64,000 nucleotides of DNA from Candidatus Zixiibacteriota bacterium. GTDB taxonomy: Bacteria; Zixibacteria; MSB-5A5; GN15; JACZUZ01. The translations under genes were made by a program, and so were the position numbers. Below are positions 9,392 to 59,680 of this stretch, one piece after another (position 1 is the first letter of the stretch; each line of letters begins with the position of its first letter). The notes under the pieces are model-generated. The model saw nothing but the letters and a program-made list of their open reading frames with translations, was not told where the DNA came from and made no database searches. The stretch spans positions 248,001-312,000 of the forward strand of contig JAJRPM010000013.1 of assembly GCA_024280775.1 (NCBI GenBank), in the 5' to 3' direction.

Positions 9392-10480
9392 CTAGACTGA
9401 AATGTTAGGAAGGGAAATCGGGCGACAAAAATACACACGCCATCCCCTCCGCACAATAGAATCATACCGCTCCTCTTCGATTTCTTTTGCGCAATCAGCG
9501 CGAAAGATACCAAAGACAGTCGAACCGCTACCGCTCACACGAATGAGCGATGCGCCAGACTGCTGGAGACGGCCTTGGATTTGTCGCAGAGCTTCGGCGA
9601 AGCTATTGATAGACTTCGCCTTACAACGGCCCGAGAGATACAAGCTCTCAAAATCACTACCCTCTTCTTCTAGCGCTTGCCACCAATACGTAGCATCGCC
9701 AGAACCCGAAAAGTTAAACCCAATCGGCGAGGATGTCAAGGGCGTATTTTCTGCGTTTTGGCGATTTACACCATCTAATCGATCCCGGAATGCGTCTAAT
9801 TCACCGAATGCCTCAGCGGTAGAAATGTGAATCCCCGGGTTAATCAACACCAGAGAATAATCCAGCGGAATCTCAAGCCCCTCAAAACTTTCCCCGCGTC
9901 CGCCGACCAAAGCCGAACCACCCGAAAAGAAGAACGGCACATCAGAACCCAACTCAGCTCCAATCTCAATCAATTCCTCGCGCGAAAGACCAAGCCCAAA
10001 AAGCTCATTGGCCCCGCGCAACACCGTAGCGCAATCACTCGACCCGCCCCCAAGTCCGCCGCCCACCGGGATAACCTTTTCCAAATCAATATGACAGTAC
10101 GGTAGCTCCGGCCGGCGAATTCGCAGTTTACTCAAAGCGCTCAAGACAAGATTATCTGAAGAAACAAACCCGGAGACTGGTGAACTCGATGAAACATCCC
10201 CGCTGTGTTGTAGCGGGTGTTGTGTCGGGTCTTGATTCTCGCTCTGCGAGAATTGTGACCCGACACTTTCTTCTGGTCTATCAATCAGCCCCGAAGATTC
10301 CGGCCCGGAGATAAACAATTCGTCTGTGTCAGACTCAAGCGGAGAAAGCGTAAGAGTATCAGCAAGCGACACCGCCTGCATAACCGACCGTATCCCATGA
10401 AACCCATCCTCCCGAAGAGGCCCAACCCGCAAAGTCAGATTGATTTTAGCTGGAGCTGTGAGTGTAAGTGAGTCGCGCAT
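9392..10480 (-). CDS. ispE: 4-diphosphocytidyl-2-C-methyl-D-erythritol kinase with a palindrome-encoded insertion
   Basis: GHMP-family kinase of the MEP isoprenoid pathway. Start ATG 10480 gives the expected MRDSLTLTAPAKINLTLRV N-terminus; an upstream TTG at 10537 would add 19 residues. The ATP-binding Gly-rich motif PVGGGLGGGSSDCATVL, the substrate loop ELGSDVPFFFSGG and the third GHMP motif VSGSGSTVFGIF are all intact, so the enzyme should work. At about 362 residues it is some 75 longer than E. coli IspE. Much of the excess is a Ser/Gln-rich segment between the N-terminal strands and SDNLVLSALSKL, and part of that is encoded by a 45-bp dispersed palindrome (10222-10266). The first gene of the block reading to rplY. 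SD is poor: GGAGGA is 18 nt upstream and fits better an out-of-frame ATG at 10491. Confidence 0.95.
   Translation of the reverse strand: MRDSLTLTAPAKINLTLRVGPLREDGFHGIRSVMQAVSLADTLTLSPLESDTDELFISGPESSGLIDRPEESVGSQFSQSENQDPTQHPLQHSGDVSSSSPVSGFVSSDNLVLSALSKLRIRRPELPYCHIDLEKVIPVGGGLGGGSSDCATVLRGANELFGLGLSREELIEIGAELGSDVPFFFSGGSALVGGRGESFEGLEIPLDYSLVLINPGIHISTAEAFGELDAFRDRLDGVNRQNAENTPLTSSPIGFNFSGSGDATYWWQALEEEGSDFESLYLSGRCKAKSINSFAEALRQIQGRLQQSGASLIRVSGSGSTVFGIFRADCAKEIEEERYDSIVRRGWRVYFCRPISLPNISV
10222..10266 (-). repeat. 45-bp palindromic element inserted in frame in ispE (family B core)
   Basis: Outer arms GTGTCGGGTC (10222-10231) and GACCCGACAC (10257-10266) are perfect complements. Inner arms ATTCTCGC (10235-10242) and GCGAGAAT (10246-10253) are also perfect, with a TCT loop. 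The same 45-bp module with the same architecture occurs in intergenic DNA at 10795-10839 and, more diverged, at 59504-59548. Length is exactly 15 codons; read on the coding strand it encodes VGSQFSQSENQDPT. Confidence 0.88.
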
Positions 10481-10551
10481 TTCAAGAACATACGATAATT
10501 CCTCCACTCGGGGAAGCAAGACTCTCCGTGATTCCAACAGCCACTAGAATC

Positions 10552-10634
10552 CGTAGGTGCATAGCGCGCTATGCCCTCTTCTTTCGGGAGACTTGCTTTG
10601 AATCAAAAAAGGCACAGCGCGCTGTGCCCCTACG
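10552..10634. repeat. Palindromic intergenic repeat, family D
   Basis: The outer ends GTAGGTGCATAGCGCGCTAT (from 10553) and CAGCGCGCTGTGCCCCTAC (to 10633) are nearly complementary. Each half also folds on itself around AGCGCGCT. Two facing hairpins separated by ~35 bp is a REP/BIME-like layout. Only one copy was seen in this window. Confidence 0.7.
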
Positions 10635-10680
10635 ACTGGAAAGGGGGCTCTGGTTTCGCCCTCTGTCTTTCCCGCGCAGA

Positions 10681-10865
10681 GGCCTGTTGATAAACCTCGG
10701 TTGAGTTGCGTCTGGTCCTTCGACGACGTTTTCTGCCGTCGTAAGACCTGACGCTTTCTGCCGTCGTAAGACCTGACGCTTTCTCTCGAGAGAAGTGTCG
10801 GGTCCTGATTTTCGCTTTGCGAATATTGAGACCCGACACAACAAACAGGACTTTATCAACAAGCC
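10681..10865. repeat. Composite palindromic element, family B, with internal tandem duplication
   Basis: Ends GGCCTGTTGATAAA and TTTATCAACAAGCC form terminal inverted repeats. Inside are two palindromic modules: a GCGTCTGGTC/GACCTGACGC module in which a 25-bp stretch is repeated exactly head to tail (10730-10754 and 10755-10779), and the 45-bp GTGTCGGGTC/GACCCGACAC module (10795-10839) that also occurs in ispE. A second copy of the whole element lies at 59479-59637. About 185 bp, no coding capacity of note; it is adjacent to family D and E repeats in the ispE/multicopper oxidase divergent intergenic region (10481-11150). Confidence 0.8.
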
Positions 10866-10938
10866 CGCAGGCGGGAATCCAGACAGGTAACGAGAACACT
10901 AATACAAACTCGACTGGATGCCCGCCTCCGCGGGCAAG
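10863..10938. repeat. Palindromic intergenic repeat, family E (CTGGAT-CCCGCC type)
   Basis: CCCGCAGGCGGGAATCCAG (10864-10882) faces CTGGATGCCCGCCTCCGCGG (from 10914), near-perfect inverted arms around ~31 bp. This sequence type (CTGGATTCCCGCC...CGGG) is a common dispersed palindrome in many bacterial genomes. The remaining DNA to 11150 holds the upstream region of the multicopper oxidase gene, with no clear promoter. Confidence 0.7.
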
Positions 10939-59124: not shown

Positions 59125-59478
59125 CTATCTGTCCTCTTCTTCTAAAAGAATCTTTTCCTATTCACGAAAAACCACCTGGCAACTCTCGCTTTTTGCAATA
59201 CTTCATGCAGAAACTCCAATTGCCCGACTTACAACGTTTCAAATCGGTTGCCAAACTGACGAACGCTTTGGCCAAGAGCTGATTTATGGATTTTTGAGCG
59301 GCGGGAAATATTGTAAGCTGTAAGATGCTAATAGCTTAGGAGAGGCAAAGTTTTCTTAGAAAACTCGAATGAACTGTCTGCGCAAGGCCTCGAATCAACT
59401 GCAAAATGGCGATTGTGCAACAAAAGAGCAGGGCGCGCCCAACAGGTATGGGGTATTCCATATTGAAACACCCTAAAT

Positions 59479-59637
59479 GGCTTGTTGACAAAGTTTTTTT
59501 GTTGTGTGAGGTCTTGATTTTCGCTTTTTGAAAATTGTGACCTCGCACTTTTTCATAGAGAAAGCGTCGGGTCACACTACGGCAAAAAACGCCGCTGCAA
59601 GACCCGACGCAACAAAACTCGGGTTAATCAACAAGCC
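59479..59637. repeat. Composite palindromic element, family B, second copy
   Basis: Terminal repeats GGCTTGTTGA (59479-59488) and TCAACAAGCC (59628-59637) are perfect complements. Inside are a diverged 45-bp module (59504-59548, GTGTGAGGTC ... GACCTCGCAC) and a second palindrome GCGTCGGGTC (59564-59573) / GACCCGACGC (59601-59610). Same architecture as 10681-10865, without the tandem duplication. It lies in the 59125-59680 gap between pilV and the Bax-inhibitor gene, which otherwise holds nothing I can name. Confidence 0.85.
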
Positions 59638-59680
59638 CTAAAGGTAGAACCCGGGAGGAATACTGGATTTGTGGAGCTAT

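Follow-up and report, generated by a model that had tools for sequence, protein, structure and literature searches.

The ispE gene and its insert

The window, a 64,000-nt stretch of the draft genome of a Candidatus Zixiibacteriota bacterium (own genome, G000; 3.17 Mb, 17 contigs), was examined alongside a same-genus sister, Candidatus Zixiibacteriota isolate Dive100_bin1.50 (G001), kinship with which points to the phylum. On its minus strand lies a gene for the kinase IspE, and inside that gene, within a segment peculiar to this species, sits a hairpin-forming palindrome of the REP type. The features at the locus are:

9392-10480, minus strand: ispE (4-diphosphocytidyl-2-C-methyl-D-erythritol kinase), recognised by TIGR00154 and GHMP_kinases_N/C, start placed via sister alignment
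10172-10285, minus strand: species-specific insert of about 114 nt (38 codons), without counterpart in the sister and in all other aligned IspEs
10199-10217, plus strand: small second hairpin in the insert, CCCGCT-GTGTTGT-AGCGGG, found by folding; no other copy
10218-10269, plus strand: single REP unit with TGTT head, two-stem hairpin and TTT tail (covariance model R1, 77.1 bits, E 1.9e-18)
10222-10231, plus strand: left arm of the outer stem, GTGTCGGGTC, paired with 10257-10266 (fold, pair counts)
10235-10253, plus strand: inner 8-bp stem, 10235-10242 with 10246-10253, around a 3-nt loop (fold, pair counts)
10232-10234 and 10254-10256: 3x3 mismatch flanking the inner stem (fold, pair counts)

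The identity of the gene is supported by a profile search (168 bits against TIGR00154, cut-off 138.7) and by matches of its product to the GHMP_kinases_N/C domains, and the best PDB matches of the predicted structure are IspE structures. Judging by the sister's aligned start codon, translation probably begins at ATG 10480 rather than at TTG 10537, to which the longest open reading frame reaches. In a draft genome of 17 contigs, an artefact of assembly or binning has to be considered, as has a palindrome formed by chance; both are extremely improbable, because the two halves of the gene make up one IspE on a 352-kb contig with the neighbours SpoVG and Prs, as in the sister, and because the palindrome scores as a family member with an E value of 1.9e-18 while shuffling predicts 0 chance matches to its 45-nt unit.

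The extent of the insert is given relative to the same-genus sister, and its ends at 10172 and 10285 depend on the alignment. At the insert site the 38 codons are missing from the IspE of the sister, which is 71% identical over residues 125-380. With about 75% DNA identity the sister is too diverged to display a clean empty site at ispE. The insert is also missing from all other IspEs in two aligned sets of 25 and 29 sequences, which have a short turn instead. The initial annotation had anticipated a lineage-restricted insert of 40-75 residues at a loop whose length varies among IspEs. The restriction to this lineage was borne out and the size comes to 38 codons relative to the sister, whereas the supposed loop variability is contradicted by a loop that is short in all aligned relatives.

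The REP contributes about 50 of the 114 nt and about 15-16 of the 38 residues, thus less than half of the insert, and the non-REP part has no further copy in the own or the sister genome. Read on the minus strand, the unit at 10218-10269 yields the peptide (S)VGSQFSQSENQDPT(Q). As first annotated, the palindrome is read without a stop in ispE and the catalytic core of the kinase is kept. None of the three frames on the minus strand of the unit contains a stop codon, so that an open frame is to be expected in the ispE orientation and a net multiple of three is the sole constraint on insertion. In an AlphaFold prediction run on the alignment, pLDDT is mostly above 90 in the core and below 50 for insert residues 67-101, and the model together with the alignment places the insert between a strand and a helix whose first residue is an invariant Asn. 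IspE is thus predicted to be an intact kinase that carries the insert as a disordered loop.

The upstream flank of ispE is crowded with repeats. A second kind of repeat, a GTAG-tagged inverted pair (CGTAGGGGCACAGCGCGCTGTGCC), lies at 10550-10639 of the window, just upstream of the gene; the same repeat occurs near the sister's ispE (G001:C8:430906-430935), with many further copies in both genomes.

A dispersed family of two-stem hairpins

Copies of the REP were sought with blastn and with the covariance model R1, built from 25 aligned units. These share a plan of a GTT head, a 10-bp outer stem, a conserved 3x3 internal loop and an 8-bp inner stem. Under this two-stem structure 96% of the cells pair, double changes occur at 14 of the 18 pairs, and this level is reached in 0 of 500 shuffles; covariation is seen at each of the 8 inner-stem pairs, while the outer stem is nearly invariant in its inner part. 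The head reads TGTT followed by G or A, mostly G, with T3 and T4 invariant, and the canonical GTAG/GTGG tetranucleotide 5' of the stem is absent from the 25 units. Absent, too, are the CGTC end and the 8-9 bp stem of CGTC-tagged REPs and of RPE-4 and RPE-6, the stems here being of 10 and 8 bp; an Rfam scan returned sub-threshold matches only. The initial description of a 45-nt module with perfect arms therefore needs amending: the core at 10222-10266 stands, the full unit extends over 10218-10269 with its head and tail, and the perfect arms are two perfect stems separated by the 3x3 mismatch.

About 40 full REP sites and 3 mini sites of 31 nt were found in the own genome with the covariance model. 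The ispE copy is the best match among them (77.1 bits), a rank that is partly by construction since the 25 model sequences include the ispE unit; the blastn matches in the same genome are independent of the model. Among the tested relatives of the order, 8 of 11 contain matches of the family to the covariance model. The initial reading had hung on the segment being absent from relatives and on the module recurring in the genome; no aligned relative has the insert, and the genome holds about 40 full copies. REPs occur as inverted pairs at the RAYT locus and in MITEs (both described below), the ispE copy itself being single, as are REPs at C7:311891, C7:47366 and C16:61406, which have no MITE ends. 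At two sites with shared flanks (L008/L151 and L124/L141), the sister's gap is shorter and gives no model match. These differences between the species, and one at the RAYT locus described below, are compatible with activity of the REP family after the split from the sister.

Linkage to one clade of RAYT genes

REP pairs lie on either side of a Y1 transposase gene of the own genome, G000:C8:72408-72887. The product of this gene passes the cut-off of NF047646 (REP_Tyr_transpos, NCBIfam) and possesses the HUH and Y motifs. RAYT orthologues and more distant RAYTs were drawn from the order and their flanks searched with R1: matches lie beside the gene at 20 of 21 orthologous loci (L239-L259), usually on both sides, and at none of 16 other Y1/RAYT loci, seven of them in the own genome. 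Four of the model sequences come from the own C8 locus and none from the other RAYT loci. At the one orthologous locus without a match (L250), diverged hairpins of the same plan can be seen by eye. Linkage to a single RAYT clade identifies the family and names its probable mobiliser, and we regard it as the strongest evidence that the palindrome in ispE is a REP of this clade. The initial suggestion of a dispersed and probably once mobile element is supported.

The own C8 locus (72230-73160) has the same neighbour genes as a site on C8 of the sister (L138). A full REPtron stands at the former; at the latter, the same intergenic site holds one REP, 92% identical, and no RAYT.

Intergenic composites and a possible MITE route

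The unit at 10222-10266 matches 10795-10839 in register (87% identity), and 59504-59548 also in register, so that the common length and module plan first noted for the three places was confirmed. The two intergenic places belong to composites, in which the elements are:

10680-10866, no strand assigned: composite, best read as a MITE; terminal repeats 10680-10694 and 10852-10866, REP B 10704-10757 (plus), REP A 10792-10843 (minus)
59478-59638, no strand assigned: composite, best read as a MITE; terminal repeats 59478-59492 and 59624-59638, REP A 59500-59551 (plus), REP B 59561-59614 (minus)

Both are bounded by GGGCTTGTTGATAAA and its complement, ends that also enclose an intact element of contig C13 (L235, G000:C13:4300-6600), the transposase of which is IS1182-like (DUF772 and DDE_Tnp_1; 265 bits, under the cut-off of 270). 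Several contigs break off about 120-140 nt from IS1182-like ends, as expected for a multicopy IS. From their ends and contents, the composites are best read as MITEs with IS1182-like ends around an inverted REP pair. No clean boundary emerged when sister intergenic regions were aligned in search of exact MITE boundaries. IS1182-type MITEs that carry REP pairs suggest two unrelated transposition systems sharing one vehicle.

The abundance of such MITEs opens another route into ispE, in which the REP arrived within a MITE, or through recombination or gene conversion with a nearby one, and the rest was lost, an IS1182-like transposase being the agent. Many REPs here sit in MITEs of this kind, one of them directly upstream of ispE (573 nt away), and over half of the ispE insert is not REP. 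We nonetheless consider this route unlikely: the terminal repeat GGGCTTGTTGATAAA is absent from the insert, the ispE REP is only 87% identical to the neighbouring A unit and has an inner stem of its own, and the single REPs at C7 and C16 show that units occur elsewhere without MITE ends. Since the composites are MITEs that carry REP pairs, the ispE copy is not, as was initially assumed, a module of the mobile unit seen in them.

Apart from this, IS1182-like copies seem to break the assembly, at ends of contigs C2, C3, C6, C7, C8, C9, C12, C16 and C17, and the element has two end variants, GGGCCTGTTGATAAA and GGGCTTGTTGAAGAA.

A lone intragenic copy

As codon-bias gene finding lacked the power to call genes, open reading frames running through the REP were examined instead, at the sites of the own genome, at about 57 in the sister and at 20 from other genomes (about 100 in total). 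The ispE copy is the only REP within a recognisable protein at these sites, and the initially proposed search for further modules inside genes thus yielded no second case. At two candidate loci the unit lies upstream of the probable start and both were rejected, one with a protein that by eye resembles D-Tyr-tRNA deacylase (L006), the other with a metallo-beta-lactamase-like protein, also by eye (L127). Five more (L116, L140, L152, L100 and L104) were rejected as their open reading frames look spurious, as judged without a library scan. With one convincing case in about 100 sites, the many in-frame genic copies typical of Rickettsia RPEs are absent, and there is no evidence at these sites of a REP family adapted to coding regions. 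Being alone among about 100 sites, the ispE REP appears to be the survivor of a rare event.

The insert could also have been retained by selection, the loop regulating or modifying IspE or the hairpin acting in the mRNA by attenuation or processing. The hairpin in the coding strand is strong (z -6, DNA parameters), and for other bacteria REPs are reported to influence the stability of mRNA and its termination (PMC6006769). Set against this are a single copy in one genome with no sign of conservation, a loop that is disordered in the AlphaFold model and the lack of another intragenic copy, and we judge selection to be very unlikely.

How the REP may have entered ispE

In our assessment the palindrome is, with good confidence, a single REP of the RAYT-associated family, probably placed in ispE by the RAYT after the split from the genus sister. 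The enzyme encoded at G000:C8:72408-72887 (TnpA-REP, HUH/Y1) would recognise the single-stranded REP hairpin by its head, outer stem and internal loop, nick beside it and join it to a single-stranded site elsewhere; a single event of this kind after the split would have put the REP into ispE. Survival would then have been permitted by three circumstances: a position on the surface, in the turn from a beta strand to a helix and away from the catalytic motifs; a net length change that is a multiple of three; and use of the strand that has no stop in three frames. IspE would have retained its activity and would carry a flexible Ser/Gln-rich loop, most likely neutral. Against this reading speak the larger part of the insert, which is not REP and has no second copy, and the missing GTAG/GTGG head.

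Relation to known systems

In-frame intragenic insertion of REPs had been thought undescribed when the locus was first annotated. GTAG- and CGTC-tagged REPs in this position were catalogued in 2013, for example in uvrA and uvrB, with cases from Opitutus terrae, Rickettsia conorii (RPE-4, RPE-6) and others (PMC3733652), besides the RPE insertions of Rickettsia, summarised together with an effect on guanylate kinase (PMC2229807). The ispE event thus adds one more case to an established class. Its novelty lies in the phylum, in the host gene and in a RAYT/REP family that has no GTAG/GTGG head, and our literature search found no report of REPs in the phylum Zixibacteria.

The intragenic REPs catalogued earlier (PMC3733652) are, like the present one, short dispersed palindromes in protein genes that are read through and add a peptide; loops or linkers are presumed to accommodate them, and the GTAG families are tied to RAYT genes in REPtrons, as here. 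The present unit differs in its head (GTT, then mostly G), its host gene, its phylum and its one intragenic copy against many. Rickettsia palindromic elements (RPE-1; PMC2229807) are also in-frame inserts in conserved enzymes, but they span 105-146 bp and have many intragenic copies, unlike a REP of 45-52 nt with a linked RAYT and one such copy. MITEs of IS1182/IS5-type match the two intergenic composites, whereas the ispE insert has no such ends.

Long REPs with an internal mismatch, and subclasses of RAYTs, have been described (PMC6006769, PMC8266576). To E. coli REP and its TnpA-REP (RAYT group 2, subclass 2.2; PMC8266576, PMC6006769) the family is similar in its long hairpin with internal mismatch, its inverted, BIME-like pairs and a RAYT gene flanked by REPs; it differs in the 3x3 internal loop, the freely covarying inner stem and the lack of a GTAG guide. 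In this RAYT clade the conserved Trp is followed by a variable residue (mostly M/E, also T/A/Q), as opposed to the WQ/WE reported for canonical subclasses (PMC8266576, PMC6006769). Short palindromes in many copies, flanking of a RAYT gene and inverted pairs are general marks of RAYT-associated REPs and are all present; the family, lacking the GT[AG]G head, is therefore a variant of these. A head that departs from the GT[AG]G rule is relevant to the choice of cleavage sites by RAYTs, and a single REP insertion in an essential metabolic gene makes loop tolerance testable on one soluble enzyme. More tentatively, we raise the possibility of a RAYT clade widespread in Zixibacteria that, with a non-canonical GTT-N guide, an internal-loop hairpin and an evolving inner stem, might write REPs in frame into essential genes and so give rise to new disordered loops.

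Further hairpin repeats

Contig C15 of the own genome (L123) carries a third, GTAG-headed hairpin family (TAGTAGGTCGGGTTCCG...) at 265163-265211, 266159-266207 and 266230-266281, about 1 kb apart; this contig has no Y1 transposase in the PF01797 list. The mini REP of 31 nt has no inner stem and reads GCGTCAGGTC-loop-GACCTGACGC; it lies at C7:246659, C6:14856 and C13:141689 in the own genome, and the sister has it on the flanks of the RAYT itself (G001 C10:345822-346298, L242). In some type B units a further 20-nt hairpin (GTCGCTGACACCCxGTGGGTGTGACC) is inserted in the right arm. Such units are found at G000:C1:148374-148446 and C5:49689-49761 and several times in the sister, and are thus repeated in both species.
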